A DNA stretch of 64,000 nucleotides from a virus: positions 124,001-188,000 of the IMG/VR virus record IMGVR_UViG_3300024336_000005. One strand, written 5' to 3'. Shown here piece by piece: positions 3,618 through 44,225 of the stretch (position 1 is its first letter; each line of letters opens with the position of its first letter). The notes beneath the pieces are model-generated. The model was not told the DNA's origin, ran no database searches, and saw only the letters and a program-made list of their open reading frames with translations. The position numbers and the translations under genes are program-made.

Positions 3618-3628
3618 TAAGACTGCGC

Positions 3629-3644
3629 ACTCCCAGTAAGGGAG
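3629..3644 (+). repeat. Small ACTC/GAG hairpin, copy 1
   Basis: CTCCC-AGTAA-GGGAG stem-loop. Member of a family of hairpins repeated in the tRNA region (other copies near 4082, 5054, 5349, 5365, 7264, 7630, 7907) whose stems differ but keep base pairing. Confidence 0.6.
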
Positions 3645-3649
3645 AAGTA

Positions 3650-3750
3650 GGGTTGGCTGCGCTTGGACTGCGTCCAATGCTGGCCTGATAGTCATATAGG
3701 CAAAGGCCAGTCAGTTGAAGTCCTCGTGACAACACCGGGCTGGCTTTTGG
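3650..3750 (+). other. Structured spacer upstream of tRNA-Ile
   Basis: No gene. It holds a hairpin TGCGCT-TTGGAC-TGC-GTCCAA-TGCT at about 3657-3681 and an outer stem CTGGCC/GGCCAG at about 3680-3711. The first belongs to a motif (TGCGCT ... ATGCTC) that recurs at about 5101, 7660 and 7944. Probably a transcribed, folded spacer. Confidence 0.5.
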
Positions 3751-3825
3751 GGTCCTCTAGCCAAACGGTCAAGGCAGCCGCCTGATAAGCGGCGATACCT
3801 GGTTCAACTCCAGGGGGGACTACCA
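3751..3825 (+). tRNA. tRNA-Ile (anticodon GAU)
   Basis: Acceptor GGTCCTC/GGGGACT (G1-U72 wobble), anticodon stem GCCGC/GCGGC, loop CTGATAA with anticodon GAT, T arm CCTGG-TTCAACT-CCAGG, discriminator A and encoded CCA. It reads AUC. Confidence 0.93.
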
Positions 3826-3861
3826 TCCAGCATTAGCTGGGACAAACATAAAGGAGAAAGC

Positions 3862-4059
3862 ATGTCGTCAAGGAACAGAGAGAATGATGCGACGATTAAG
3901 AGGTTGCAGCGAGTGTCGGATGTCCTCAAGCAGGAGATGAGGGAGATCCCCTTCTTGCCAAAGGACATCACGGACACTTTGAACGGTACCATCAGCTACG
4001 TAAAGCGTAGATGTGCCGCGCTAGGTCCAGTAGAAGAGGCATCTGACTCACCAGAGTAA
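3862..4059 (+). CDS. Small hypothetical protein, 65 aa
   Basis: AAAGGAGA lies 6 nt before the ATG. Charged, mostly helical (MSSRNRENDATIKRLQRVSD ...) with an acidic C-terminus. It is one of the few protein genes in the tRNA region. No family recognised. Confidence 0.7.
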   Translation: MSSRNRENDATIKRLQRVSDVLKQEMREIPFLPKDITDTLNGTISYVKRRCAALGPVEEASDSPE

Positions 4060-4081
4060 GTGTCCAAATAGCTTTTGTCTT

Positions 4082-4099
4082 ACTCTTAGTGAAGAGGAG
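4082..4099 (+). repeat. Small ACTC/GAG hairpin, copy 2
   Basis: CTCTT-AGTG-AAGAG stem followed by GAGACATGTAG. The 3' arm runs into a GAGGAG that looks like a ribosome-binding site but is followed by ATG-TAG, so no protein is made from it. Confidence 0.6.
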
Positions 4100-4106
4100 A
4101 CATGTA

Positions 4107-4162
4107 GCACCTAAACTGGCTCCCTAGTAGCCGAGAGTCGGCGGGTCGTTCAGTTTAGGTGC
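4107..4162 (+). repeat. Perfect 12-bp inverted repeat
   Basis: GCACCTAAACTG (4107-4118) is exactly complementary to CAGTTTAGGTGC (4151-4162), enclosing a 32-nt GC-rich loop that can fold further. It would form a stable RNA hairpin between the 65-aa gene and the palindrome-rich tract. Confidence 0.75.
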
Positions 4163-4179
4163 AGTAGTTACCGAGCCAG

Positions 4180-4460
4180 CAAAGTCATCGATCGTACGTC
4201 AACAAAGAAGAGCTAGTAGTATAGACTAGTAAGCTTCAGACGTCCGGCTCGAGACCCAGTCTGGCGGCCGGCGGAGGAGATGATCTCCGGCGCCGTGGGA
4301 CCGTACTTGGTCCGCCATGGTAACTACAACTGCAGCGAGGAGACATGTACATGATCCAGACCTGGTCACCAGCTCTTAGGGGCCCATAAGGCCTGACCTG
4401 GATGTCCATGTCGATAACGCTGTGGAGAACTACTTCTATATATGTCAAGTACTACAATAG
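4180..4460 (+). other. Non-coding tract dense in short palindromes
   Basis: No convincing gene. I count about 18 perfect 6-bp palindromes (for example atcgat, cgtacg, actagt, aagctt, gacgtc, ctcgag, cggccg, ggcgcc, ccatgg, ctgcag, acatgt, tgtaca, gggccc, aggcct, agtact, tctaga), where chance predicts roughly four. Hairpins such as GGAGA-TGA-TCTCC and GGACC-GTACTT-GGTCC are present. It may be a folded RNA or a tract under unusual selection. Confidence 0.45.
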
Positions 4461-4495
4461 GTCTAGAACTATTGGGCATAAAGAAGGGTAGTTCT

Positions 4496-4530
4496 GCGGG
4501 TGAAGTGTTTAGGTTGCACGTCTGGCTTCC
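4496..4530 (+). pseudogene. 5' half of an interrupted tRNA
   Basis: GCGGGTG acceptor strand, D arm GTGT-TTAGGTT-GCAC and anticodon 5' strand TCTGG followed by CTTCC, where the tRNA breaks off. The matching 3' half lies at about 5009-5048 beyond an HNH gene. Position 8 is A rather than the usual U. Whether the two halves are joined in RNA is unknown. Confidence 0.5.
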
Positions 4531-4582
4531 TTCCAAACTTTCGCTGTTATTGGAATCCAAGCACTACGCTTGGAGGGCTACA

Positions 4583-4993
4583 ATGAAAGTTTGCACTAAA
4601 TGCAATGAACAAAAGACACTAGAAAACTTTTCATGGAAAGATAAAAATAGAGGAAGAAAAGCTTCCGAATGTAAGAGTTGTCATAAAATAATGAGGTTGG
4701 CTTATTATCAAGCTAACAAAACAAAAGAAAGACAACGAGCAAATCATCGCAGGATGAATCTCAAAGCATGGTACAGGGACTTAAAGAAGACACTGTGCTG
4801 TCATAAATGCAGAGAGAGCCACCCTGCGATATTACATTTTCACCATAAAGTTTCTAACCAAAAAGAACTTGAAATATCTATAGCCATCAACCATGGATGG
4901 TCAAAAGAGCGCATTCTAAAAGAAATGAATAAATGCGAAGTTCTTTGTGCCAATTGTCATGCTAAGCATCATTGGGATGAAAGGTACGAATAG
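4583..4993 (+). CDS. HNH homing endonuclease inside a tRNA
   Basis: 136 aa from ATG 4583, preceded by GGAGG. The N-terminal zinc knuckle has two CxxC pairs (CTKC, CKSC); a basic helical middle follows; the C-terminal HNH/zinc region has CHKC, the HFHHK metal-binding histidines and LCANCHAKHH. Freestanding nucleases of this type cut DNA and spread by homing. The gene sits between the two halves of a tRNA with only about 70 nt of flanking sequence, too little for an obvious group I core. Confidence 0.85.
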   Translation: MKVCTKCNEQKTLENFSWKDKNRGRKASECKSCHKIMRLAYYQANKTKERQRANHRRMNLKAWYRDLKKTLCCHKCRESHPAILHFHHKVSNQKELEISIAINHGWSKERILKEMNKCEVLCANCHAKHHWDERYE

Positions 4994-5008
4994 TGCTTTA
5001 CATTCCTC

Positions 5009-5048
5009 AACCCAGAAAGACAGAGTTCGATTCTCTGTACCCGCACCA
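5009..5048 (+). pseudogene. 3' half of the interrupted tRNA
   Basis: Anticodon 3' strand CCAGA, variable loop AAGA, T arm CAGAG-TTCGATT-CTCTG, acceptor strand TACCCGC (pairs with GCGGGTG at 4496) and encoded ACCA. The rejoined anticodon is ambiguous: UCC (Gly) if CTTCC is kept, UCA if the loop is CTTCAAC. Confidence 0.55.
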
Positions 5049-5053
5049 TCCTT

Positions 5054-5074
5054 ACTCTGAGAAAAGAGGAGGAG
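5054..5074 (+). repeat. Small ACTC/GAG hairpin, copy 3
   Basis: CTCT-GAGAAA-AGAG stem followed by GAGGAG, six nucleotides after the 3' half tRNA. Same family as the copies listed at 3629. Confidence 0.55.
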
Positions 5075-5076
5075 AA

Positions 5077-5143
5077 CATTAATATATATAAGGCCAATCT
5101 TGCGCTTTTTCAATGCTCGATCGAGTTCTTATATATATTAATG
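5077..5143 (+). repeat. Perfect 16-bp inverted repeat
   Basis: CATTAATATATATAAG (5077-5092) is exactly complementary to CTTATATATATTAATG (5128-5143). The 35-nt loop carries the recurring TGCGCT ... AATGCTC motif (5101-5118). A strong AU-rich RNA hairpin is expected. Confidence 0.8.
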
Positions 5144-5222
5144 GTAATAAGTTTAGATCAGACATCTTTTTAGCGCTCAGATAGATTGTCCGAGCTCGAA
5201 GAAAGAAAAATAATCTGAATAC

Positions 5223-5250
5223 ACAAGTGGAACTTAAGATAACCACTTGT
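5223..5250 (+). repeat. 8-bp inverted repeat abutting a tRNA
   Basis: ACAAGTGG (5223-5230) and CCACTTGT (5243-5250) are perfectly complementary, and the stem ends exactly at the base before tRNA position 1 (5251). The stretch 5144-5222 has no gene I can support. Confidence 0.7.
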
Positions 5251-5337
5251 GGGATGTTAGCCGAATTGGTTGAAGGTACCGGACTCTTAATCCGGAGAGT
5301 GAAAGCTCCATTCTGGGTTCGAACCCCAGGCGTCCCA
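5251..5337 (+). tRNA. Class II tRNA with CUU anticodon
   Basis: Acceptor GGGATGT/GCGTCCC, D arm GCC-GAATTGGTTGAA-GGT, anticodon stem CCGGA/TCCGG with loop CTCTTAA (anticodon CTT), T arm CTGGG-TTCGAAC-CCCAG, A73, no encoded CCA. The variable arm is 17 nt and forms GAGT-GAAA-GCTC with a GNRA loop, so this is a class II (Leu/Ser/Tyr-type) body. CUU normally belongs to class I tRNA-Lys, so the identity is conflicting. Confidence 0.8.
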
Positions 5338-5348
5338 CTTAAGTCCAT

Positions 5349-5380
5349 ACTCTAGGAATAGAGATACTCTTTCGGGAGTA
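5349..5380 (+). repeat. Two tandem small hairpins
   Basis: CTCT-AGGAAT-AGAG (about 5350-5363) then TACTC-TTTCGG-GAGTA (5365-5380), ending one base before tRNA-Phe. Relatives of the ACTC/GAG hairpin family. Confidence 0.5.
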
Positions 5381-5381
5381 T

Positions 5382-5453
5382 CCGCCCTTAGCTCAGTTGG
5401 TAGAGCATCTGGTTGAAGCCCAGTGGTCTCTGGTTCGATTCCAGAAGGGTGGA
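5382..5453 (+). tRNA. tRNA-Phe (anticodon GAA)
   Basis: Acceptor CCGCCCT/AGGGTGG, D arm GCTC/GAGC, anticodon loop TTGAAGC (GAA), T arm TCTGG-TTCGATT-CCAGA, A73, no encoded CCA. Position 3-70 is a G-U wobble, normally the alanine identity pair, which is odd for a Phe tRNA. Pair 27-43 is mismatched (T-T). Confidence 0.88.
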
Positions 5454-5479
5454 CAAGTACTGAAACGCAAAGGATGAAA

Positions 5480-5740
5480 ATGAAGATTAAAGAACTGATT
5501 GAAGCCCTGCAGGGAAAAGATCCAGAAGCTGTTGTTGTAATCCATGGCTACGAGGGTGGCTTTCATGAGGTGGCAAGGACATTAAATGGAGGAATCTTTG
5601 TTGATCTCCATAGAGGTGATGCTTATTATGGAGAGCACGAATTCTGTTCAGAGGAATATGCTGAGGGAGCGAACAGCAAAGCTGTCCTTCTCCTCCATGA
5701 CTGTCCAAAGGATGAAGATGATTACACAGGAAACTCATAA
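5480..5740 (+). CDS. Hypothetical protein, 86 aa
   Basis: I chose ATG 5480 because AAAGGA sits at normal spacing; ATG 5474 would overlap it. It begins MKIKELIEALQGKDPEAVVV, a pattern common in short phage proteins of unknown function (a second one starts at 34845). Asp/Glu-rich C-terminus. Confidence 0.75.
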   Translation: MKIKELIEALQGKDPEAVVVIHGYEGGFHEVARTLNGGIFVDLHRGDAYYGEHEFCSEEYAEGANSKAVLLLHDCPKDEDDYTGNS

Positions 5741-5749
5741 GGATAAATA

Positions 5750-6859
5750 ATGTCGCACACAACTCTTTTTCATAAGGGCAAGGCCAACAAGCTGTACTCA
5801 TGGACCATTTGGACTGAAGGTGACGAAATTGTTACCGAACATGGGACTGCAGAGGGCAAGAAGCAGGTCTCACGTAAGAAGGCCACGCCAAAGAACGTAG
5901 GCAGATCCAATGAGACCACAGCAGAGGAGCAGGCCGTGCTTGAAGCACAGGCCATGTGGACCTTCAAGAAGGAACGCAAGTACTCAGAGTCTCCTCATGA
6001 GGCAGAGCAAACACTCTTCCTCCCCATGTTGGCACAGGACTTTGAGAAGAAGAAGTCTAAGGTTAGCTACCCCGTAGATGTTCAGCCTAAGCTGGATGGA
6101 GTTCGCGCTCTTGCTACTTGGGAGGGAGAAGAGGTTAAGCTCTACTCTCGTTCAGGTAAGGAGTGGAACATTCCTCATCTAGCAAGACAGCTTGAGGCAG
6201 TCTTGCCTAAGGATAGAATTGTTGACGGTGAGATTTACATCCATGGTGTGAGCTTCCAGGCAGTGACTCGACTGGTTAAAAAGCATAGACCAGGAGAGAG
6301 TGAGAAGCTTAATTACTTCATCTACGATATGGTGATGAAGGGGGCAGAGAACACAGAGATTGGCTGGCTTCCTCGTAAGCATCAGCTGGCTGAGTTCTTT
6401 GGGTCCTTTGATGAGAGCTTGGCTCCCAACCTCATTCATGTTCAGAGTAATGATGCCCCAAGTGAAGAGGAAGTCTATTATCTACAGCAGAAGCTAGTAG
6501 AAGAAGGCTTTGAAGGTGCCATCGTAAGGGTCCTCAATGGATTCCCTTACATTTATGGCTACCGCTCAGCTGGTCTGCTCAAAGTAAAGACCTTCTCGGA
6601 TGAAGAGTTTAGAGTGGTTGGGCATACCATGGGAGTAGGCAAGTTCGCTAATACCCCTACGTGGGAGTGTATCACCAATGAGGGGAGGCCTTTCCGGTGC
6701 CTGTCCAAGGGAACGAAGGCCGAACGAGAGGCCATGGGAGCCAATGCTGAGTCCTACTATGGGCAGATGCTAAAGGTTCGCTTCTTTGAGAAGTCAGAAG
6801 ATAATATCCCAAGGTTTCCAATCGGTATAGGCTTTAGAGACCCCAGGGATATGTCATGA
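5750..6859 (+). CDS. ATP-dependent DNA ligase with WGR-like N-terminus
   Basis: 369 aa. Residues about 1-75 look like a WGR-type module (KLYSWTIWTEGDEIVTEHGT). The nucleotidyltransferase core follows: motif I KLDGVRA near residue 115 with the adenylated Lys, DGEIY (motif III), EGAIVR (motif IV) and LLKVKTF (motif V), then an OB fold. It seals nicks in duplex DNA in replication and repair. Preceded by AAGGATAAATA. Its stop overlaps a small membrane-protein gene. Confidence 0.92.
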   Translation: MSHTTLFHKGKANKLYSWTIWTEGDEIVTEHGTAEGKKQVSRKKATPKNVGRSNETTAEEQAVLEAQAMWTFKKERKYSESPHEAEQTLFLPMLAQDFEKKKSKVSYPVDVQPKLDGVRALATWEGEEVKLYSRSGKEWNIPHLARQLEAVLPKDRIVDGEIYIHGVSFQAVTRLVKKHRPGESEKLNYFIYDMVMKGAENTEIGWLPRKHQLAEFFGSFDESLAPNLIHVQSNDAPSEEEVYYLQQKLVEEGFEGAIVRVLNGFPYIYGYRSAGLLKVKTFSDEEFRVVGHTMGVGKFANTPTWECITNEGRPFRCLSKGTKAEREAMGANAESYYGQMLKVRFFEKSEDNIPRFPIGIGFRDPRDMS

Positions 6860-7011
6860 AGTACATCTTCTTGACTGTAGTCCAGGTCATATTGGCCTTG
6901 GCCATCTGCGAAACATTGGTACAATTTGCATGGGTTATGGTAATGGGATCAATAGGTTGGCACACATACGACCTAATAAGCACTAGAATAGTAGGGGTTA
7001 AGGATGAGTAG
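6856..7011 (+). CDS. Small membrane protein, 51 aa
   Basis: ATG overlaps the ligase stop (ATGA). It starts MKYIFLTVVQVILALAIC and continues hydrophobic to about residue 33, giving one long or two short transmembrane segments, with a charged C-terminus (RIVGVKDE). Function unknown. Confidence 0.65.
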   Translation: MKYIFLTVVQVILALAICETLVQFAWVMVMGSIGWHTYDLISTRIVGVKDE

Positions 7012-7255
7012 AATAGAATACTCACAGTGTGAGTTAGAAATTAATACCGGCAGTGGTATTATCACAACTACATCATGGCTACCTACCTATCACAAGAACG
7101 TGAAGATTGTGAGAGGCGTTCATGTGAGGCTGGAAGAAGATACGGAAGAGCGCTGGTGGACGGTGGTGTCAGTAGGAGCAACAAAGATCTCAGACAAGAC
7201 TGCATTCAAGCAGGCTCGACGACACGCAAACTACATAGCCTCAGTAGATATTTAA
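7004..7255 (+). CDS. Hypothetical protein, 83 aa
   Basis: TTAAGG precedes the ATG, which overlaps the previous stop. It contains a beta-rich core (VRGVHVRLEEDTEERWWTVV) and a basic helical end. No family recognised. It is the last protein gene before the second tRNA block. Confidence 0.7.
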   Translation: MSRIEYSQCELEINTGSGIITTTSWLPTYHKNVKIVRGVHVRLEEDTEERWWTVVSVGATKISDKTAFKQARRHANYIASVDI

Positions 7256-7263
7256 GAAGACAT

Positions 7264-7282
7264 ACTCCCGGAAGGGAGGAGT
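7264..7282 (+). repeat. Small ACTC/GAG hairpin, copy 6
   Basis: CTCCC-GGAA-GGGAG stem with a GNRA loop, followed by GAGT. Same family as 3629. Confidence 0.6.
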
Positions 7283-7294
7283 CAATCTTAATTT

Positions 7295-7472
7295 GTCCTC
7301 CGCTTGGATGCATTAGAAATGCACCCAATGTTGCTAGGCAACCCAATGCTCGGACGTCCTTTGCTTGGCAAGCCAAGGCTAGGACTGGATCATTGGGCGG
7401 AGGCTTAACCTTACCAAAGGGCACCAAAAATATATAGGTGTGGTTGCTAATGATTAGCGACCGTAAGGTTAA
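7295..7472 (+). ncRNA. Candidate multi-branched structured RNA before the initiator-like tRNA
   Basis: No gene. Outer stem CCTCCGC (7297-7303)/GCGGAGG (7397-7403) encloses TGCATT-AGA-AATGCA, GTTGC-TAG-GCAAC and CTTGG-CAAG-CCAAG hairpins. A second stem TTAACCTTAC (7405-7414)/GTAAGGTTAA (7463-7472) encloses GGTTGCTAA-TGA-TTAGCGACC and ends exactly at the base before the tRNA. Such density of perfect pairing indicates a folded RNA; identity unknown. Confidence 0.6.
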
Positions 7473-7547
7473 TGCGGAATAGAGAAGCCAGGTTATCTCG
7501 CTAGCCTCATAAGCTGGAGATCGCAGGTTCAAATCCTGCTTCCGCTA
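7473..7547 (+). tRNA. tRNA-Met (CAU), initiator-like
   Basis: Acceptor TGCGGAA/TTCCGCT pairs except T1-T72, a mismatch at the position that marks bacterial initiator tRNAs. D loop AGCCAGG and T loop TTCAAAT also resemble tRNA-fMet. Anticodon loop CTCATAA (CAT), A73, no encoded CCA. The three consecutive G-C pairs of a classic initiator anticodon stem are not complete (A29-U41), so the role is uncertain. Confidence 0.85.
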
Positions 7548-7549
7548 CA

Positions 7550-7620
7550 TTCCCAAGATAAGAAAATCAAATGCAATCGCGGTTAACTTTTGTAGTTTTT
7601 GCTTAGGCTTATCTTGGGAA
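7550..7620 (+). repeat. Perfect 13-bp inverted repeat after the CAU tRNA
   Basis: TTCCCAAGATAAG (7550-7562) is exactly complementary to CTTATCTTGGGAA (7608-7620). It begins two nucleotides after the tRNA discriminator base, so it could define the tRNA 3' end or act in RNA processing. Confidence 0.75.
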
Positions 7621-7629
7621 CATTTTCTT

Positions 7630-7647
7630 ACTCCTAGAGAGGAGGAG
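7630..7647 (+). repeat. Small ACTC/GAG hairpin, copy 7
   Basis: CTCCT-AGAG-AGGAG stem followed by GAG. Same family as 3629. Confidence 0.6.
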
Positions 7648-7654
7648 AAAGACT

Positions 7655-7823
7655 GTCCTGCGCTCCTCTTCCACTACGTGGTCGCGGATGCTCGGAGTCA
7701 GTTGCTTGTTAACACAGGTTTACCTCAGGCTACGGAGCTTGCTCAATGCTTGAGCTTCGCCCCTAGGCCTCCAGGTAAACCACAGTAAACAAGCAAGCGA
7801 CCTAAGGCTTGCCTTGGGGTCGG
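7655..7823 (+). ncRNA. Candidate structured RNA before tRNA-Arg(ACG)
   Basis: No gene. It starts with the recurring element (TGCGCT, stem CCAC-TAC-GTGG, ATGCTC at about 7660-7694). A long nested stem follows: GCTTGTT (7704-7710)/AACAAGC (7788-7794) and GGTTTACCT (7717-7725)/AGGTAAACC (7773-7781). Hairpin CGACC/GGTCG (7798-7822) ends one base before the tRNA. Confidence 0.6.
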
Positions 7824-7897
7824 GCCCGCTTAGCTTAATGGATTAAAGCGACGGTCTACGAAGCCGTTAAATCTAGGTTCGAATCCTAGAGTGGGTG
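7824..7897 (+). tRNA. tRNA-Arg (anticodon ACG)
   Basis: Acceptor GCCCGCT/AGTGGGT (G1-U72 wobble), D arm GCTT/AAGC, anticodon stem ACGGT/GCCGT, loop CTACGAA (ACG), T arm CTAGG-TTCGAAT-CCTAG, G73, no CCA. If the host's TadA deaminates A34 it would read CGU, CGC and CGA. Confidence 0.92.
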
Positions 7898-7906
7898 CAT
7901 AGTCTA

Positions 7907-7924
7907 ACTCTCAGAAGAGAGGAG
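7907..7924 (+). repeat. Small ACTC/GAG hairpin, copy 8
   Basis: CTCTC-AGAA-GAGAG stem followed by GAGACGTAC, ten nucleotides after tRNA-Arg. Same family as 3629. Confidence 0.6.
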
Positions 7925-7929
7925 ACGTA

Positions 7930-8041
7930 CATAACGACAGCCCCTGCGCTCAACTACGTTGATGCTCATGTCTGTCTGTCGGATTCCCCAAGGGTAACCC
8001 GACGATCATATAGACTTATGAACTTCGGTCTATGGGTTTAT
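7930..8041 (+). ncRNA. Candidate structured RNA before tRNA-Thr
   Basis: No gene I can support. It carries the recurring element TGCGCT-CAAC-TAC-GTTG-ATGCTC (about 7944-7966). Compared with 7660, the stem changed from CCAC/GTGG to CAAC/GTTG while the TAC loop and flanks stayed. A second hairpin ATAGAC/GTCTAT (8010-8033) lies just before the tRNA. Confidence 0.55.
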
Positions 8042-8121
8042 GCCAGCGTGGCTCAGTGGCGACAGCACCGATCTTGTAAGTCGGTATCTCAACATCGTAG
8101 GTTCGATTCCTACCGCTGGCA
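8042..8121 (+). tRNA. tRNA-Thr (anticodon UGU) with a long variable loop
   Basis: Acceptor GCCAGCG/CGCTGGC is perfect. Anticodon stem CCGAT/GTCGG, loop CTTGTAA (TGT), T arm GTAGG-TTCGATT-CCTAC, A73, no CCA. The variable region is 12 nt (TATCTCAACATC) with no internal stem, unusual for a class I tRNA. Confidence 0.85.
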
Positions 8122-8136
8122 CATAAGGAGAGAAAT

Positions 8137-12568: not shown

Positions 12569-13263
12569 GCTACTCAAAGCTTTTGATGACCCTTGTCCCC
12601 GGAGAGACAACAGTAGGGGTCCTCATCGAGAAGAAGAATGGGACTAAGGAAACCTTTAGGGTTGCACAAGACTCAATTTCTTCTATCTTTTCAGGGAACT
12701 ATTGTTCTGGATACTTGCCCTCCTCTCAGGATGGCGTTGTCTATCTAGAAGAAAAGGAAGGCAACAAGTTAGTGGTCATCCAGCGAGGGGCCAGAGAGGC
12801 TCAGGATCTTCAGTGGAATGACCATACTGGGACTCGTGAGCAGATGAAGATAAAGACAAAGACTCCGAATGCCTTCTTCGTCTTTGTCTTGGGTCCGTCA
12901 GAGGGTGGATACAGGATTAAGAAGGAGCGTATCTTTGTTTCGACTGGTCCGACCAGAGGGCCTACGACCCCTCTGTATAATGCAGAATGGTTGGGCAATG
13001 TATACAATCGTTCGCCTAGCGATGGCGCGAGGACAAACATTTGTTGGGGGACAACTACTGTTGCTCCAATGGGAATTGTAAGTGTCTCTTCTTTGATGAA
13101 TATCGCTAACGATTTCTTTACTCAGGACTTTACACAGCACCTACGTGGGACAAGAGCCATCTGGGAAGAATACAATAATACCAGAAGCTTTAGAGAGACT
13201 CAGCGTATGACTTTGGCTGAAGTGATCAGGAGGATGTGGGATGGACTTCCGGACACCCATTGA
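12565..13263 (+). CDS. PRTRC protein B-like (Prok-E2 family) protein
   Basis: 232 aa, TTG start overlapping the previous stop. The C-terminal half (NAEWLGNVYNRSPSDGARTN, then ICWGTTTVAP, then FFTQDFTQHL) matches the PRTRC protein B layout: NVY, a G-x-V/I-C-x-G motif, a proline, and FF-x-S-x-FTH. That family is classed with prokaryotic E2-like folds. Cys160 in NICWGT is the candidate conjugating residue. The assignment rests on recalled family pattern plus gene order with Ubl, JAB and E1. Confidence 0.68.
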   Translation: MSYSKLLMTLVPGETTVGVLIEKKNGTKETFRVAQDSISSIFSGNYCSGYLPSSQDGVVYLEEKEGNKLVVIQRGAREAQDLQWNDHTGTREQMKIKTKTPNAFFVFVLGPSEGGYRIKKERIFVSTGPTRGPTTPLYNAEWLGNVYNRSPSDGARTNICWGTTTVAPMGIVSVSSLMNIANDFFTQDFTQHLRGTRAIWEEYNNTRSFRETQRMTLAEVIRRMWDGLPDTH

Positions 13264-14356
13264 GCCTAAGCCTGAATTTCTTAAGAAGTTCGAAGCTCAA
13301 GAGTGGGCGGTGCACCTTGGAGAAATTCCAGAGACTTTAGTAAGGAACTCAACCCTCTCCATCTTTGGAGATGGTAAGTATCTCACAAGGTCAAATCCCA
13401 TTGGGACTTTTACGCGCAGAATTGAGCGTATGGATATTCCTACATTGGATCATGGACCCGACCCAAGCTTCTCCTTGAAGCTACCTAAGGTGCCTGCTGC
13501 TATTCTGATGAAGCAGGTGAGCTTCTACCGTGAGGTAATGAAGCTCTTTAATGATGCAGAAGCCTACTCCATTGTCATGTATGACACTGTAGAAGAGCAA
13601 TACTTTTTGGTCATTCCTGAGCAGACCATCTCTAAGGCGCACGTTAAGTACGATCAGCCTGAGCTAAGGAAGAAGTACCCTTCCGACCGCTACATTGAAG
13701 TTATCTCTGCTCATAGTCACAACTCTATGAATGCATACTTCTCTCCCCTTGATGACAAGGACGAGAAGGGAGATATTCTATACATGGTGATGGGTAAGTT
13801 GAACCAAGAGGTTCCAACCTATTGCATCCGTGCAAATGTGGCTGGTGCGGAGTGCGTCAAGCTTCCCCTTGAGGATCTGTTTGATCTTTCTGAAGAGAAC
13901 TGGGCAGAGCTTTCTCCCTATTGGGAAGACCTTCATGACAGCACTTGGGTCGAGCAGCTCCATGTTCGAGGGCCTGTTGTTAGTGCTCACTCTCAGTTTG
14001 ATCAGATGCTTAAGACCTTTCAGGGCTCTCGCCCAAGAAGGCCTTTCACTGGTAGAACAACGGGAAGCCAGATGGACTTCTTTAACCAGACCGAAAGTGA
14101 AGTGGGGAGCGAAGGCTCTGAGCAAAAGGAATTCATTACAATCGCCTGTGCCTTGATTAAGGACGCTAGAAGCTTACCTCCTGAGCAGGTTATGTTTAAT
14201 CTGATATCGAATCTCTTAGAGAGGGGATACGCAGAGGACATTCATGCTGCCATTGTTGCTTGTGATCATGTTGAAGAATTCCAGGCGATGGAAAAAGATG
14301 ATTGGGAATTAGATATGAAATTGCGTATGGAGTTAGATGATGGCTGGTATTCTTAA
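13241..14356 (+). CDS. JAB/JAMM-domain protein (PRTRC protein A-like)
   Basis: 371 aa, ATG preceded by AGGAGG. The JAMM zinc motif is visible: H158-S-H160, seven residues, S168, two residues, D171 (AHSHNSMNAYFSPLDDKDE), the same spacing as PRTRC A proteins. JAMM enzymes are zinc isopeptidases that cut ubiquitin-like proteins from substrates. About 130 extra C-terminal residues are unrecognised. It overlaps the B-like gene by 23 nt and the E1 gene by 20 nt. Confidence 0.85.
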   Translation: MDFRTPIEPKPEFLKKFEAQEWAVHLGEIPETLVRNSTLSIFGDGKYLTRSNPIGTFTRRIERMDIPTLDHGPDPSFSLKLPKVPAAILMKQVSFYREVMKLFNDAEAYSIVMYDTVEEQYFLVIPEQTISKAHVKYDQPELRKKYPSDRYIEVISAHSHNSMNAYFSPLDDKDEKGDILYMVMGKLNQEVPTYCIRANVAGAECVKLPLEDLFDLSEENWAELSPYWEDLHDSTWVEQLHVRGPVVSAHSQFDQMLKTFQGSRPRRPFTGRTTGSQMDFFNQTESEVGSEGSEQKEFITIACALIKDARSLPPEQVMFNLISNLLERGYAEDIHAAIVACDHVEEFQAMEKDDWELDMKLRMELDDGWYS

Positions 14357-15503
14357 TTTCGAGGGAATTGATCCACTCCTAAAGCTTTCTTCAAAGCTTG
14401 GAGTTGCACTTGATAGCGCACAGGATTTGCATCCTGTCTTCCGAATCGCAGGGATTGTTTCTCAGACGGGAACGTTGCTGGACTATGCCGTCAAGCTTGT
14501 TCCCGATCGGCCAGAGACTAAGACGACTGTGGTGCAGAACTACCGAAACGTACATACCTTTACGGCACAACAGCCGACCATAGTTATGGTAGGTTGTGGC
14601 GGTACGGGCAGTCACTTGCTTCCAAATATTCTACAGTATGCAATCACCAAGGCGGCTCAACAGACTGTTACCCCTCCCTGTGTCATCATTATCGATGGAG
14701 ACGGAGTGGAAGAGAAGAACCTAATTCGACAGAGGTTCACTCAAGCGGACCTTGGAGAGAACAAGGCTATTGCCTTGTCTCGTCGCTACAGTGCAGTGTT
14801 TGCTACAAAGATTAAGGCTGTAGACACTTACCTTGAGGACTCAAAGCAGCTGATTGGCCTTATCAAGGACGAAGCCCCAGCGGTTGGTCCTATCATTTTA
14901 GTAGGGGCAGTGGATAATCACAGAGCTCGTGCTATTTTGTGGGACACCTTCTTGAGCGAGACCCAGAGGGAGATCTGGTGGGTTGACGCAGGAAATGAGT
15001 CCTGGCATGGTCAGGTCATTTCTGGGTGCAGGAATGTACAGACAAAGGGAGATTCCCATTGGGCTGCCGCAGGCATCGGAGATGATATTGCTTCTGTTGA
15101 TCTGCCTTGCTTCTTCGATGAGTATCCAAAGGAGTTCATGAAGATTGGCGGTACGCCAACGACTCCACAGAATACTTGTGCTGCAGTGGCTGAGGAGGAC
15201 CCTCAGACCATTCATGCAAACTCATTGTCAGCCCAATGTGCTTCAAACATTATCACTCAGATTCTTGAGGGTGAAGTTAGAGTAATGGGATTGAACTTTG
15301 ATGCAAAGACTGGTCAGGTTAAAGCCAAGATTCTTACACGAGTGAACATCGCCACCGCATACGTTGACATGAAAAACTCAAGAACTTCTCTTCGGGGATT
15401 CCTTGGGGACCTATGCTCGTGGAAGGGGAAGTCTGAACCGGCGACTCTCTTCCCGGGACTATACAAAAAAGCAAAGGTAGAGGATCTCTATACGGCTATT
15501 TAA
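14337..15503 (+). CDS. ThiF/E1-family activating enzyme (PRTRC-type)
   Basis: 388 aa. Nucleotide-binding VGCGGTGSH at about residues 85-93, IIDGDGVEEKNLIRQ (the Asp and Arg that engage ATP), and Cys281 in PQNTCAAVAEEDPQ, where PRTRC ThiF proteins carry their candidate catalytic Cys. E1 enzymes adenylate the C-terminus of a ubiquitin-like protein and take it as a thioester. About 80 N-terminal residues precede the Rossmann fold. Its stop overlaps the reverse transcriptase ATG (TAATG), a strong sign of co-expression. Confidence 0.88.
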   Translation: MMAGILNFEGIDPLLKLSSKLGVALDSAQDLHPVFRIAGIVSQTGTLLDYAVKLVPDRPETKTTVVQNYRNVHTFTAQQPTIVMVGCGGTGSHLLPNILQYAITKAAQQTVTPPCVIIIDGDGVEEKNLIRQRFTQADLGENKAIALSRRYSAVFATKIKAVDTYLEDSKQLIGLIKDEAPAVGPIILVGAVDNHRARAILWDTFLSETQREIWWVDAGNESWHGQVISGCRNVQTKGDSHWAAAGIGDDIASVDLPCFFDEYPKEFMKIGGTPTTPQNTCAAVAEEDPQTIHANSLSAQCASNIITQILEGEVRVMGLNFDAKTGQVKAKILTRVNIATAYVDMKNSRTSLRGFLGDLCSWKGKSEPATLFPGLYKKAKVEDLYTAI

Positions 15504-16357
15504 TGTACAGACAGTATAAAATAAAGAAGCGCAAAGGAGGGTTCAGAACTATTACTGAACCCTCTGACTCTTTAAGTGAGATGCTGTCTTACCTTAAGGT
15601 GCACTTAGACGCCCTGCCCATGAGTGAACATGCTCATGGCTTTATTGTGAATAAGAGTATCATTACAAATGCCCTGCCGCACCGGAACAAAAGATATGTC
15701 CTTAACCTAGACGTTAAGAACTTCTTTCCCAGTGTTAGAAGGCCTCTGATGATGGAAAAGTTAGCTCCCTTCTTTAATGAAGGGAAGCTTCCTCTAGACA
15801 TCAGAGATTGGATTCATGAGTTGTGCTTCTTTGAAGGAGCGCTACCTCAGGGCTCACCAACCTCTCCTGTTCTTTCTAATCTCTATATAGCAGAGATAGA
15901 CGAAGAGCTAGTCAGAGTAGCAGGGGAGATGGACTGTACTTATACTAGGTACGCTGATGATATGACCTTTTCAGGAGGAGACGTCCTGAAAAGTGAGAGG
16001 GATAAGGTGGCGCGCGAGGTCGATCTTCTCTTGCAGAGGATTGAACTAAAGCTCCACCCACGTAAGGTAAAGCTTATGCCATACTATCAGAGACAGATTG
16101 TCACTGGCATTGTGGTAAATAATGAAAAATTGACGCTACCTAGATGGTACAAAGAGGAACTCTTCCTTGCTACAAAGGGAGAGGATCCGTCTACCTTCGA
16201 TGAACAATTCAGGGGTGTTCTTGAGTATGTTCGTTCGGTAGATTCACAATTCTATAAAAAAATGTGCAACCATATGATTGCACCAAAGGAGAATGAAGAT
16301 GGCAACACTTCCAGAGTGGATCACAGAGGTCCGATTTTATGCAACGACTCCCAGTAG
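15503..16357 (+). CDS. Retron-type reverse transcriptase
   Basis: 284 aa. Motif A LDVKNFFPSV, motif B LPQGSPTSPVLSNL, catalytic YADD in YTRYADDMTF, and a later RQIVTGIVVN. NALPH before motif A and VTG after motif C are the retron-RT hallmarks NAxxH and VTG. QG in motif B argues against a diversity-generating RT. There is no maturase or endonuclease domain, so not a group II intron. It is translationally coupled to the E1 gene; the usual msr-msd RNA is not visible immediately upstream, which is coding. Confidence 0.88.
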   Translation: MYRQYKIKKRKGGFRTITEPSDSLSEMLSYLKVHLDALPMSEHAHGFIVNKSIITNALPHRNKRYVLNLDVKNFFPSVRRPLMMEKLAPFFNEGKLPLDIRDWIHELCFFEGALPQGSPTSPVLSNLYIAEIDEELVRVAGEMDCTYTRYADDMTFSGGDVLKSERDKVAREVDLLLQRIELKLHPRKVKLMPYYQRQIVTGIVVNNEKLTLPRWYKEELFLATKGEDPSTFDEQFRGVLEYVRSVDSQFYKKMCNHMIAPKENEDGNTSRVDHRGPILCNDSQ

Positions 16358-30651: not shown

Positions 30652-30815
30652 CTGATCTCCCTCCAGCCTAGATCCTCTCCACCCACCTGTGGACCCGCCC
30701 GCAACCTCAAAGGCCAGCAGGGCCTTCAGTCCCAGTAAAGCTCTTCCAAATTGGGAAGATAATCATTACCACTCCTTTATTAGTTATGTTAAGCAATAAC
30801 AGCAGGAGCTCCTCC

Positions 30816-39091: not shown

Positions 39092-40084
39092 ATGAAAGAC
39101 TTTGTACATCTTCACCTGCACACTAAGTTCAGCCTACAAGATGGTACCACTGAGCCTGAAGGGCTCATGAAAAAGTGTGCCGATCATGGGATGAAGTCCG
39201 TTGGAGTGACAGATCATGGGAATATGGCAGGGATGTGGGATTGTGCTAAGTACGCTAAGCAGTATGGCATTAATCTAATCCCTGGCAATGAATTCTATGT
39301 TGTTCCTGATGCACAAAAGAGCAGGGGGAATGATTGGCGGAAGGGGAAGTCCTCTCATCTTGGACTTCTTGCTTATAGTCAGACCGGTTGGGATAATCTG
39401 TTGAGGCTTACTGCGTTATCGAATCTTGAGGGATTCTATAACGAACCTCGGATAGACTATAGGATGCTCAGAGAGAACTCCGAAGGATTGTGGTGTATGT
39501 CTGGCTGCCTCGGCGGCTTCATAAATACAGCCATTAAGAATAATCAATCCCCAAGGTTTGCGGTAGATATGCTGCATAGTATCTTTGGAGATAGGCTATC
39601 TCTTGAGATACAGGTGAACCCAATACCTGACCAGCAGATTCTTAATGATGAAGTGATAGCAATTCATCATGCTACAAAGATTCCCCTCGTTGCTACCGTT
39701 GATGCTCACTACTTAGATAAGACTGATAGCCACAACCAGGACATCCTGTTTGCAATGCAGTTAGGGAAATCCCTAGAGGACCCAGAGAGGCTGAAGATGC
39801 CTCCAGAAGAGCACTCTGTTGAAACCCCAGAGGAAGCCATCAAGAGGTTCACAGATAAGTATGGGAACCTTGGATTGGAGGCTTGTCGGAGGACGGTAGA
39901 GATTGGAGACAACTCTCACTCAGAGATTACTTACCAAAGTAAGAGCTATAAAATTCCCACCCTTGATGTTGCAGCACAGCCAGACTTCCAAGAGTTTCTT
40001 AAATGGAAGACAGGCTGTGAATGTCACACCTCAGACAAAGGGGAGTGCTTAGTACATGGAAAAGCCTGTGGGCATAACCACTAG
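39092..40084 (+). CDS. dnaE: Stand-alone PHP domain of DNA polymerase III alpha
   Basis: 330 aa. FVHLHLHTKFSLQDG, VGVTDHGNMAG, GNEFYVV and VATVDAHYLD are the PHP metal motifs of DnaE. In ordinary DnaE this domain is fused to the palm; here it stops and ends in a Cys/His-rich tail (CECHTSDKGECLVHGKACGH), a likely zinc site that could dock it to the rest. Palm and fingers start 0.7 kb downstream. The PHP domain stabilises or proofreads for family C polymerases. Confidence 0.9.
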   Translation: MKDFVHLHLHTKFSLQDGTTEPEGLMKKCADHGMKSVGVTDHGNMAGMWDCAKYAKQYGINLIPGNEFYVVPDAQKSRGNDWRKGKSSHLGLLAYSQTGWDNLLRLTALSNLEGFYNEPRIDYRMLRENSEGLWCMSGCLGGFINTAIKNNQSPRFAVDMLHSIFGDRLSLEIQVNPIPDQQILNDEVIAIHHATKIPLVATVDAHYLDKTDSHNQDILFAMQLGKSLEDPERLKMPPEEHSVETPEEAIKRFTDKYGNLGLEACRRTVEIGDNSHSEITYQSKSYKIPTLDVAAQPDFQEFLKWKTGCECHTSDKGECLVHGKACGHNH

Positions 40085-40107
40085 AAATAAAACTATAGGA
40101 GATTAGC

Positions 40108-40401
40108 ATGTTAGAAGTTACCCCCGCACCTGGATTCGCCATGGTGACACTTGAGAAGGACGCACAGACAAAGTCTGGACTTTTTGTTGCAGGCACACAG
40201 GACGGCCTAAAGAGAGGTCGCGTAGAAGGCCTTGGCCCTGAGTTTGTCACAGACCATGGTGTTTCAATCGCCTTCCCAGCAGATGTTGGAGATGTCGTTC
40301 TATTTGACAAGGGAACTGAATTTTCAATCCCGGGGCAAGGAAGCTACTACTTCGTGTGGCGGAACAACACTGTTGGCAGGATCGTCGAGTCAGGAGAGTG
40401 A
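40108..40401 (+). CDS. groES: GroES/Cpn10-like co-chaperonin
   Basis: 97 aa, AGGAGA upstream. PAPGFAMVTLEKD, TKSGLFV, GDVVLFDKGTEFSI and YYFVWRNNTVGRIVE follow the Cpn10 barrel. Phage GroES analogues replace the host cap on GroEL for folding capsid or other phage proteins. It sits between two pieces of dnaE. Confidence 0.82.
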   Translation: MLEVTPAPGFAMVTLEKDAQTKSGLFVAGTQDGLKRGRVEGLGPEFVTDHGVSIAFPADVGDVVLFDKGTEFSIPGQGSYYFVWRNNTVGRIVESGE

Positions 40402-40727
40402 CAGATTCACTTGGGAATGAATACAGAGTGGGAGATATACTCTTGTACGTCGCCGGGGGAGATCAGGCTCGGCCACAGATTGCCATGTTTGTTGAAGCTT
40501 ATATGAATGCAGATGGAGATCCTAAAAATAGGTTCCTTTTTGCGAACCGTAGAACGTGGAATCGAGATCAAAATAACGTGTCTGTCAGAACTATTGGACG
40601 GCCCTGGAGGGCCCGCTTGAAGCGGCTCTCTGATGTCCTTCCTCATGACAAGGCCCTCGAGGCAAGAGATTTCTTTGAGTATGCCCTGGAGCTAAAGGGA
40701 TACGAGCTTGGGCTGCCTCTTCTTTGA
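40398..40727 (+). CDS. Hypothetical protein, 109 aa
   Basis: GTG start overlapping the groES stop (GTGA). MTDSLGNEYRVGDILLYVAG and a basic middle (RRTWNRDQN, then WRARLKRLSD). Not recognised. Confidence 0.6.
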   Translation: MTDSLGNEYRVGDILLYVAGGDQARPQIAMFVEAYMNADGDPKNRFLFANRRTWNRDQNNVSVRTIGRPWRARLKRLSDVLPHDKALEARDFFEYALELKGYELGLPLL

Positions 40728-40774
40728 GGTATGATGTCAGAATGGAGAGGTCTCAGAGAGAAGGAGAGGTTCAA

Positions 40775-41600
40775 ATGAAGAGTGATGATCAGAACTCCTA
40801 CCTTTTATTTTGGGCCCAGAAGGGGCTTAAGGCAAGAGGGCTCTGGGATGACCAGGTCTATAAGGATAGGGTAGATTACGAGTGGAAAGTTATCTCTCGT
40901 ATGGGGTTTGCAGGATACTATCTTGTAGTCGCTGACTACGTGGCTTGGGCCCGTAGTCAAAGAATCCCAGTGGGGCCTGGACGTGGTTCAGGTGCTGGCT
41001 CTTTGATTGCCTATGCTGTAGGCATAACGGATGTGGATCCCATTAAGTGGGGCCTAATGTTTGAGAGGTTCTTGAACCCAGGTAGAGTCTCCATGCCTGA
41101 CTTTGACATTGACTTTGGAAAGAGAGATCGACTCAAGGTTTTTGACTACCTGTCAGAGAAATACGGACATCAGAACGTTTGTCAGATTGGTACTATTGGC
41201 ACCATGAAGGCAAAGCTTGCGGTCAAAGATGTGGGGAGAACCCTTGGACTTGATCCCTCTGAGCTGGAAAGATTCTCTAGCTTAATTCCCGACGAAGAAA
41301 GAGGAGGACAGGGCGATCATGCTATCACCTTGAGCCTCCTCTTGGATCCTCCCAGGGAGCTTGTTAAGGCTCACGGAGAGGCTCTTGCAAAGTTCAGAAC
41401 TGCTTATGAATTCGACAAAGACTTTCATAGAGTTGTCAACCTTGCTGTAGAGCTGGAAGGAATCCCAAAGAGTTACGGGGTGCACGCAGCTGGAGTTGTC
41501 ATCGGAATTGATTCTCTATGGGGAGATATTCCTCTTAGGAAATCAAATGATGGAAGGCCTGTTAGTCAGTGGACTGACAAGCAGGTCGAAAAGATGGGGT
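40775..41600 (+). CDS. dnaE: Family C DNA polymerase (DnaE) N-extein, exon 1
   Basis: ATG 40775 has AAGGAGAGG upstream and gives MKSDDQNSYLLFW. GPGRGSGAGSLIAYAVGITD and MPDFDIDFGKRDR (two catalytic Asp) are the DnaE palm; GVHAAGVVI and QWTDKQVEKMG follow. The frame closes shortly after codon GGG at 41597-41599; the expected VKFDFLGLRTLD resumes at 42431, so an intron is removed. Exon 1 ends with U at 41600. Confidence 0.92.
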
Positions 41601-41742
41601 TAGCTTATTAGCCCCTGTATGGAGCAATCCGTACAGCAAACAAGGTGAACCCCAAAGCAAAGGGGGTGTGCTGCATCTGCAGCGCTAACAGGGGAACCTA
41701 AGTGAGCGAGTCTCATAAGGCAATCCTGTGCTAAGCTTTTGA

Positions 41743-41771
41743 TTGATTAGGTATTGCAAAATTGATATAAT
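41743..41771 (+). promoter_or_regulatory. Possible promoter for the intron endonuclease
   Basis: TTGATT, 17 nt, TATAAT, ending 27 nt before the ATG of the intron HNH gene, itself preceded by an AGGAG. Phage group I introns often express their endonuclease from a separate promoter, but AT-rich intron sequence can mimic one. Confidence 0.4.
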
Positions 41772-41798
41772 AGGAGCTCAACAAACAGGAGCTGCGTT

Positions 41799-42335
41799 AT
41801 GCAAAAGTTAGAAGGATTTGAGAAGGTAGAATCTGAAGGAATTTTGGGAGAGTATTATATTCATCCAGACGGAAGGATCTACAGAGATTACGGACATAGA
41901 ATAAAATTTCTTTCCGAGAGGCCAAATGCTTATGGCTATAGTCGAATAAGCTTGCTTCATCAGGATGGACGTAGAGTGGATCGAATGATGCATCGATTAT
42001 TGATGTTAACATTTGTCCCAAATCCAGATAATAAGCCACAAGTCAATCATAAAGACGGAGATAAAAGCAACAATCAGCTTTCCAATTTGGAATGGGTTAC
42101 AGATCGAGAAAATAAGCTTCATTCACATAGAGTGCTTGGAGCCAAATCTAGTGACAAAAGTTGTTTCTTATTTTATTTTGGGGGCTTTGTTCAAAGGTTT
42201 CCAAACATCCAAGCTGCTTGTAACTATGCAGCTAAAAAATATGGGTGCTCCTCAAAGTCTTTATGTAAATATTACACATCTAATGGATGTGCAATTATTA
42301 CAGAAGAAAGTGCAACGACTATCCTAACGGAGTAG
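41799..42335 (+). CDS. Intron-encoded HNH homing endonuclease
   Basis: 178 aa. Residues about 15-60 are NUMOD4-like (GEYYIHPDGRIYRDYGHRIK), then the HNH core (MMHRLLMLTFVPNPDNKPQV, NHKDGDKSNNQLSNLEWVT) and a NUMOD1-like C-terminus (VQRFPNIQAACNYAAKKYG). The last codons lie over the intron's P7 strand. It would cut intronless dnaE alleles to spread the intron. Confidence 0.88.
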   Translation: MQKLEGFEKVESEGILGEYYIHPDGRIYRDYGHRIKFLSERPNAYGYSRISLLHQDGRRVDRMMHRLLMLTFVPNPDNKPQVNHKDGDKSNNQLSNLEWVTDRENKLHSHRVLGAKSSDKSCFLFYFGGFVQRFPNIQAACNYAAKKYGCSSKSLCKYYTSNGCAIITEESATTILTE

Positions 42336-42428
42336 GGGGGGTATTGCTCCTCTCGAAGCGCCTTGATCTCTGAATCAATACAGAGAATATGATATAGTCT
42401 GTGCCACTAGAAATAGTGGAATAACACG

Positions 42429-44149
42429 TTGTAAAGTTCGACTTTCTGGGACTCCGCACACTTGATGTAATTGAAGACGCCTGTCGTAGCATAGAGAAAA
42501 GAACTGGAGTGACTATTGATTGGGAACAGACTCCCGAGGATGATGGTCCTACATTCGATATGCTCAGCAGAGGAGACACCTTTGGTGTCTTCCAGCTGGA
42601 GGCATCTGGTATCTCTGGGTTTACCAAGGGATATAAGCCAAGGTCTATCGATGACATCTCAATCATCTCAGCTCTATACAGACCTGGTCCGCTGGATAAT
42701 GGGATGGTAGATGCCATTCTGTCTGTCCGCAAGGGGAAGAAGATTGAAGAGAGTCCTGTTGATGTCATTAAAGAAATCCTTAAGGATACGAATGGGGTTC
42801 TGACATATCAGGAACAAGTATTAGCAATATCAAGGGAGATGGCTGGGTTTACCCTGTCGGGTGCTGATCTATTGAGGCGCGCGATTGGCAAGAAGCTGCC
42901 CGAAGAGATGCAAGCGCAGGAGCAAAACTTTGTTGATGGCTCCGTAGAGAAGGGGTATCCAAAGCATCAAGCTTTGGAAGTATTTGAAATCATTAAGAAA
43001 TTCGCTGACTATTGTTTGTCATATGATACTAAGGTATTGACCGATAAGGGGCCTCTCTCAATTGGTCATATTGTAGAAAATCAGCTAGAGGTTTCTGTTT
43101 ATTCTATTGATGAGCATGGGCTTGTCTACTCTCAGCCGGTGGCTCAGTGGCATGACAGGGGCATAAGAGAAGTCTTTGAATACAAGCTTGAGGATGGCTC
43201 TGTCATCCGAGCGACCGAAGATCATAAGTTTATGACCGTCGATGGAGATATGCTTGCTATTGAAACAATCTTCCTGCAGAATAGGGATATGCTTGTCATT
43301 GAAACAGGCAAGATTCAAATAGGGGAGATTGAAATGAAGCCTTATAATAAACTAAATGACCTGGACAAACAACTTGTCCAACGACTGTACTATGAAGGAT
43401 TATCCTTTGAGGACATCTCAAAGGAAGCTGTGGTATCTCAACGTTCTGTTAGTCGTGTTTTGCAAGAGGCTAATATTAACACCAGAAGGAAAAACCGTTA
43501 TACCCTTAATGAAAGCTTCTTCTGTGGAGCATATGATCATTATGAATGTGCATATTTTTTAGGCCTACTGGCAGCAGATGGATGCGTTACTCATAAGGAT
43601 TACATCGCCCTCCAGCTTATTGATGAAGAACTTGTCTTATGGTTTCGCAAAGCGATCGAATACTCAGGAGAAGTTCGGCTTATCCTTGGCGAGGAGCGAA
43701 AGCCCCCTGGCCAAGATGCCTATAGGGTGAACTTTAGCTCTGCCATAATGTCAGAGGAACTTCGTTCATATGGAATCATTGCCGGAAGACATCTTCAAGC
43801 AATTCCGAAGTTAGAAGATTCAATTGTGCCTCATTTTATTCGAGGGTATTTTGATGGAGATGGATGTGTTTACTTAAGGCCAGAGGGTTCTGGTGGAGTT
43901 GTTCATATTGTAGCCTCCGAGGCGTTTTGCGAATCGCTTAAAGAATACTTTGGATTCGGAACAATTAGTTCACATCCCAGTGGTATGTATTATTGGAGGA
44001 TCTTTGCAAAAAAACATGTGAATGTTTTTTATGAAGCCCTATATGATTCTGATGGTTCAGAGACCCTGTGCCTTAATCGCAAAAAGCAACTAATGGAAGC
44101 CTTCCTACGGAGCTACAAGTATGAAAATTGTTGGAAAGCAAAGGATTGA
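42429..44149 (+). CDS. dnaE: DnaE exon 2: rest of N-extein plus N-terminal intein half with LAGLIDADG domain
   Basis: Codons from 42431 continue DnaE (VKFDFLGLRTLDVIEDA, FGVFQLEASGISG, ALYRPGPLDNGMVDAI) to FADY. At 43013 the intein begins: CLSYDTKVLT, RATEDHKFM (block B), then a helix-turn-helix and two LAGLIDADG motifs (FLGLLAADGCVTH and FIRGYFDGDGCVY). The frame stops at 44149 before splicing blocks F and G, which are in the next frame. N-extein 470 aa, N-intein 378 aa. Confidence 0.9.
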
Positions 44150-44225
44150 GGATCAATCAGTCTATGATATTGGAGTAGAAAAAGACCATAACTTTCTTCT
44201 TGCTGATGGACAGGTTGCTTCCAAT
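43013..44225 (+). mobile_element. DnaE intein, broken into two overlapping reading frames
   Basis: Inserted between FADY and CFNKSHS, the insertion point of naturally split cyanobacterial DnaE inteins, and closely resembling them (PVAQWHDRG, EDGSVIRATEDHKFMTVDGD; C-part VYDIGVEKDHNF, ending VASN before Cys+1). Unlike those it retains a LAGLIDADG endonuclease, in the N half. The halves overlap by 29 nt in different frames, so a functional polymerase needs protein trans-splicing (or a frameshift plus cis-splicing). Confidence 0.85.

Follow-up and report, generated by a model that had tools for sequence, protein, structure and literature searches.

Large phages carry long arrays of transfer RNA (tRNA) genes, and the spacers between those genes are usually ignored. 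Within the tRNA array of one such phage, a small hairpin recurs from spacer to spacer, which raises the question of what these hairpins are and what acts on them. We examined bases 124,001–188,000 of the 204,008-base IMG/VR phage record IMGVR_UViG_3300024336_000005. This 64,000-nucleotide (nt) stretch is hereafter the window, and coordinates refer to it unless stated otherwise; those prefixed L010 or L011 refer to pieces in which the record was read. The tRNA genes span about 84–132 kb of the record, and the array genes run mostly in one direction. The hairpin family, which we call M1 (copies H1–H8), is real, is larger than an initial annotation of this DNA described, and comes with a second motif, M2, downstream in some spacers, all in one phage.

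Between positions 3500 and 8200, seven hairpins fit the pattern ACTC-NN-[AG]G-loop-NN-GAG, compared with 0.05 on average and at most 1 in any of 1000 dinucleotide shuffles, and the minus strand of the same region holds none. These seven stood among eight that the initial annotation had grouped together, and those at 3629, 4082, 5054, 5349, 7264, 7630 and 7907 do form one family. The hairpin it listed at 5365 (TACTC/GAGTA, with a UUCG-type loop) is not a member, since a covariance model of the family gives no match to it at E values up to 10. The true eighth copy, H8, lies outside the window, 20 kb upstream and after tRNA-Asp (L011:12026–12054, equal to record 111,526–111,554); a further copy thus exists, whose absence had been named as a refuting result. 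As had been proposed, a covariance model was built, here from these eight copies. Across the 204-kb record this model reports exactly eight copies at 23.4–37.1 bits, with the next best match at 13.8 bits. Because the model was built from those copies, its weight lies in the absence of others and not in the M1 scores. All eight copies lie on the sense (tRNA) strand.

M1 follows the consensus NNCUU-A-CUCNN-RGNN-NNGAG-GAGNN. This architecture goes beyond the one first described, comprising an outer helix of 3–5 base pairs (bp) and an inner CUCNN/NNGAG helix, with an unpaired A between the two, and an RGNN loop, which is a tetraloop in seven copies and replaced by AGUAA in one. The unpaired A, the CUC, the G at the second loop position and the GAG are invariant in all eight. 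Individual copies depart from the consensus elsewhere: in H3 (the 5054 copy) a G.A replaces the fifth inner pair, H1 has an internal loop where others have the single unpaired A, and in H4 the outer helix is absent in register.

The initial annotation held that sequence changes in the stems are compensated and that pairing is selected. We measured covariation on an alignment registered by hand, with one loop base of the five-base-loop H1 removed. In the ten-pair structure 88.8% of cells are paired (74.2% in shuffled alignments), 15 cells are changed on both sides (6.1 shuffled) and the covariation score is 0.450 (0.194 shuffled); for each value, 0 of 500 shuffles were as high, and sliding the register lowers all three. 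The variable fourth and fifth inner pairs are formed in 15 of 16 cells (permutation P 0.0008). The outer three pairs, which were not used for finding copies, are formed in 20 of 24 (permutation P 0.001). Covariation in two helices, the outer one independent of copy-finding, thus supports the earlier claim. Folding in 320-nt context gives inner-pair probabilities near 1 in all copies except H4 (and the mismatched fifth pair of H3). The H4 spacer (5339–5381) can fold two ways, either as M1, with a probability of about 0.55, or with M1's ATACTC paired to the GAGTAT of the next hairpin.

Which strand carries the active form? M1 pairing counts 71 cells on the plus strand and 68 on the minus strand, the difference reflecting G-U pairs on the plus strand, a comparison that is weak alone. 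Because all copies lie on the tRNA strand and the structure has its G-U pairs there, the acting RNA is probably the tRNA-sense transcript.

The position of M1 within the array is equally regular. We defined a spacer as the stretch back from each array tRNA to the previous tRNA or open reading frame (ORF) of at least 60 amino acids. All eight copies lie in spacers that end at a tRNA, one per spacer, and none lies in a spacer leading into an ORF. For H5, the script took an overlapping ORF of uncertain reality (7075–7434) as the previous feature; taking ORF 7004–7255 instead places this copy in the spacer before tRNA-Met. Most hairpins had been said to follow a gene or tRNA within about 20–40 nt. 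The distance is in fact 1–6 nt in six of the eight, with M1 starting 17 nt past the upstream feature in H2 and 76 nt in H6. Several spacers also have a hairpin directly against the next tRNA.

M2 (UGCGCU...AUGCUC; as a search pattern SCGCU...AUGCU), absent from the initial annotation, lies downstream of M1 in five of the eight spacers (H1, H3, H5, H6 and H7). Its expectation in shuffled spacers is 0.034, with a maximum of 1 in 2000, for a pattern picked after the data were seen. The pairs flanking M2 covary in a hand-registered alignment of its two arms (87.5% paired, against 74.2%; 1 of 500 shuffles). Most of the M1 spacers are predicted to fold far more stably than expected by chance: folding z values run from −4.3 to −6.2 for H2, H3, H5, H6 and H8, and are −2.7 for H7, −1.7 for H1 and −1.3 for H4, compared with a mean of −1.2 (standard deviation 1.25) for coding windows.

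What could such an arrangement be for? We tentatively propose that the spacers ahead of the tRNAs may encode structured tRNA-leader RNAs, with the M1 hairpins as recognition elements at their 5' end. The phage would transcribe its tRNA array as one RNA; RNase P would cut at each tRNA start, and 3' processing of the upstream tRNA would free the spacer, a release that would follow from established tRNA maturation. The freed RNA, roughly 40–430 nt long, would carry M1 at its start, often M2 next, and the hairpin against the next tRNA at its end. One trans-acting factor, most likely a phage or host RNA-binding protein, would then bind M1. Conserved unpaired bases in a covarying hairpin, present once per tRNA-leading spacer near its 5' end, suggest that a single factor recognises the hairpin, and the M1 spacers probably make discrete RNAs that share this factor. 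Three roles had been suggested for the hairpins, as processing sites, protein-binding sites or transcription checkpoints. The sequence does not separate them, and binding of a protein or other factor fits best because the loop, unpaired A and flanks are more conserved than pairing requires and M2 is present in five of eight spacers.

A covarying hairpin found once per tRNA-leading spacer suggests that these spacers are RNA genes under common control. The wider proposition, that the phage has a new class of tRNA-leader RNA, with a shared recognition hairpin and often M2, and that all of them are acted on together by a single phage factor, is doubtful. If it were true, that factor could, for example, protect, process or deliver tRNAs during infection. 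M1 offers a 30-nt bait for the factor and a test of how the phage handles its own tRNAs.

Several observations weigh against the tRNA-leader reading. The model fits H1 and H4 less closely, H4 has its alternative fold, and three M1 units are without M2. Many spacers of the array, upstream at record 84–119 kb, have no M1, which makes M1 unnecessary for tRNA processing as such. A separate 13-bp hairpin (7550–7620) lies between tRNA-Met and H6, so an RNA freed by processing of tRNA-Met alone would not begin with M1. Upstream of H1, H2 and H5 lies an ORF; tRNA processing alone would yield no 5' end there, and a further cut would be needed. Finally, the family is known from one phage only, with no relative found to cover the tRNA array.

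That last point rests on several searches. Against Rfam release 15, at the gathering score and at permissive thresholds, the only credible matches were tRNAs, and the M1 spacers match no family. In 44 other phage records the M1 covariance model gave no convincing copy; near-threshold matches there were weak, isolated and outside tRNA spacers. Relatives sought through DNA ligase, IMP dehydrogenase, Ro60 and DnaE, as single and profile queries, included none that covers the tRNA array. In the part compared, the only near-identical contig (L031) matches window positions 30,724–51,608; its 143-kb record yielded no tRNA. The M1 consensus, used as a pattern against IMG/VR, gave 16 matches, none near a tRNA, and a composite M1-M2 pattern gave 1 match in viral and 11 in genome contigs, which is chance level, none of them a tRNA spacer. 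We found no description of such hairpins in the open-access literature. M1 is apparently a new, single-phage RNA motif, with a function that we infer from sequence.

Rather than binding a factor on a released RNA, M1 could be a processing signal: cleavage by an endonuclease, within the hairpin or next to it, would detach the tRNA unit from the gene upstream. There is one M1 per boundary, six of the eight within 1–6 nt of the upstream gene end, and the structure is conserved together with particular bases; such a cut would also make the 5' end where an ORF lies upstream (H1, H2, H5). The 3' arm of most copies contains GGAG, which forms the core of the site cut by T4 RegB, but in M1 it is paired, and sites held in structure are protected from RegB (PMC3014915). 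A search of the record gave no RNase III domain. An RNase III site is a long double helix; M1 has 10 bp with a break. Moreover, tRNA ends directly followed by an ORF carry no M1, and this explanation leaves M2 unexplained. We consider it rather unlikely but a live rival.

Antitermination, in which M1 and M2 together would keep polymerase going through untranslated RNA as HK022 put RNA or nut/boxB does, is distinctly unlikely but likewise a live rival. The put RNA, a segment of about 70 nt in a phage transcript, has two small stem-loops in succession, and M1 plus M2 resembles it in layout and size (PMC9378689). M1 also starts where translation or the upstream tRNA ends, in an array of mostly co-directional genes. 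However, a put site is found close to an early promoter and its action reaches at least 10 kb (PMC9378689), which would make seven M1 copies in 4.3 kb redundant. HK022 put occurs once per operon, whereas M1 has eight copies before tRNAs, three of them without M2; the likeness to put is one of layout only. M1 loops are not boxB GNRNA pentaloops, and promoter- and terminator-like sites are no more frequent in the region than background.

The hairpin might instead act in DNA, as a palindromic protein site or a hairpin promoter. Inverted repeats can form hairpins in DNA, and N4 virion RNA polymerase uses small hairpin promoters. Against this stand the single orientation of the copies, the one-sided unpaired A, the G-U pairs on the transcript strand, loops of 4 nt where N4 promoters have 3 nt, and the lack of promoter enrichment; action in DNA is very improbable. 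Recent duplication of a repeat unit or mobile element, with covariation due to ancestry and not selection, is suggested by seven of eight copies lying within 4.3 kb and by nearby HNH-type ORFs, but this already disfavoured idea is hardly credible: a repeat search finds no unit similarity outside M1 and M2, several copies carry changes on both sides of the stem in both helices, and M1 always stands at a gene end except in H6.

M1 was also compared with known elements. An HK022 put-type antiterminator has two adjacent stem-loops near an early promoter, while M2 accompanies only five of eight M1 copies and these recur every few hundred nt before tRNAs. The lambda-type boxB is a 5-bp stem with a GNRNA pentaloop; M1 has RGNN tetraloops in seven copies and AGUAA in one. 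A CsrA/RsmA site presents GGA in a hairpin loop, as only two of the eight M1 loops do. ANTAR RNAs carry a pair of hexaloops, each with A first and G fourth, where M1 loops have four or five nt and G at position 2. Intrinsic terminators have a GC-rich stem followed by a U-run; M1 is followed by GAG and purines, and there is no plus-strand terminator call at any copy. The boxB, CsrA, ANTAR, terminator and N4-type promoter readings are rejected for their mismatch in loop or flanks.

Other known systems offer parallels. The coat-protein operators of MS2 and PP7 share with M1 a short hairpin, an unpaired A in the 5' arm and a small loop. In M1, however, the unpaired A lies five pairs below an RGNN loop, and the hairpins stand before tRNAs, not at a gene start; we know of no coat protein of the MS2/PP7 kind in this phage. 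Bacterial tRNA-spacer RNAs such as 3'ETS-leuZ parallel the model proposed here, in which tRNA processing would release the spacer. Unlike the M1 spacers, they are not known to be marked by a shared hairpin family. GOLLD and ROOL RNAs are about 600–800 nt in size. They are structured non-coding phage RNAs, often near tRNAs (PMC7567579), and resemble M1 spacers in tRNA proximity and structure, but they are Rfam families, whereas the M1 spacers are 43–436 nt long and have no Rfam match.

Table. M1 and M2 elements, the neighbouring non-member hairpin, and the tRNA genes that follow M1 spacers.
Feature	Position	Strand	Score	Details
H1 M1	3624..3649	+	23.4 bits, E 0.0017	5-nt loop; inner pairs about 1.0, p3-p5 0.98; 6 nt past stop codon of IMP-dehydrogenase-like ORF; spacer leads to tRNA-Ile
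H2 M1	4077..4101	+	35.5 bits	after ORF 3862-4059; spacer leads to split tRNA-Gly-like gene
H3 M1	5049..5073	+	35.6 bits	directly 3' of split tRNA-Gly-like gene; spacer leads to tRNA-Lys
H4 M1	5344..5368	+	27.8 bits	5 nt past tRNA-Lys; outer helix out of register
H5 M1	7259..7283	+	34.9 bits	3 nt past stop codon of ORF 7004-7255; spacer leads to tRNA-Met
H6 M1	7625..7649	+	36.3 bits	76 nt past tRNA-Met; spacer leads to tRNA-Arg
H7 M1	7902..7926	+	37.1 bits, E 4e-7	3 nt past tRNA-Arg; spacer leads to tRNA-Thr
Non-member hairpin	5364..5381	+		ATACTC-TTTCG-GAGTAT; against tRNA-Phe; shares 43-nt spacer with H4 (5349 copy)
M2, H1 spacer	3653..3685	+		TGCGCT...ATGCTG
M2, H3 spacer	5096..5122	+		caps 16-bp helix (5077-5092 with 5128-5143)
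M2, H5 spacer	7294..7355	+		TCCGCT...ATGCTC, closed by GTCC/GGAC
M2, H6 spacer	7654..7700	+
M2, H7 spacer	7935..7979	+
tRNA-Ile	3751..3825	+		after M1 spacer
tRNA-Gly-like, split	4496..5047	+		after M1 spacer
tRNA-Lys	5251..5338	+		after M1 spacer
tRNA-Phe	5382..5454	+		after M1 spacer
tRNA-Met	7473..7548	+		after M1 spacer
tRNA-Arg	7824..7898	+		after M1 spacer
tRNA-Thr	8042..8122	+		after M1 spacer
tRNA-Val	L011:12187			outside window; preceded by H8

The split tRNA-Gly(UCC)-like gene is interrupted in its anticodon loop by about 470–480 nt carrying an HNH-like ORF (4580–4993). Its exact junction and anticodon are uncertain, and it has no group I intron match.

The array also encodes a Ro60/TROVE protein (PF05731, PF25045) at L011:3273–4916, about 102.8–104.4 kb of the record, which is about 39% identical to Ro-like proteins of mycobacteriophages. 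As with the Y RNAs of Ro60 (Rsr), a Ro60-like protein here coexists with RNA candidates, namely separate tRNA-spacer elements with GAACTGAAG ends. Five such elements, at L011:6516, 6959, 9822, 11635 and 18562, start with GAACTGA[AC]G and end near GTTC; three of them hold a T-arm and displaced tRNA-like pieces, and there is no Rfam match. These elements are possible Y-RNA partners of the Ro60 protein. M1 spacers do not carry GAACTGAAG, and the two sets do not overlap.

Other genes of the phage merit mention. An RNA ligase (PF09414) lies inside the tRNA array at L010:17185–18546. At 13241–16357, a ThiF-family protein sits beside a reverse transcriptase (RVT_1, 284 amino acids, placed at 15503–16354 by inspection) in an arrangement that is possibly retron-like. 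A DnaE-type DNA polymerase is split over several ORFs at 39092–45359, with an intein-like sequence in 42509–44149.

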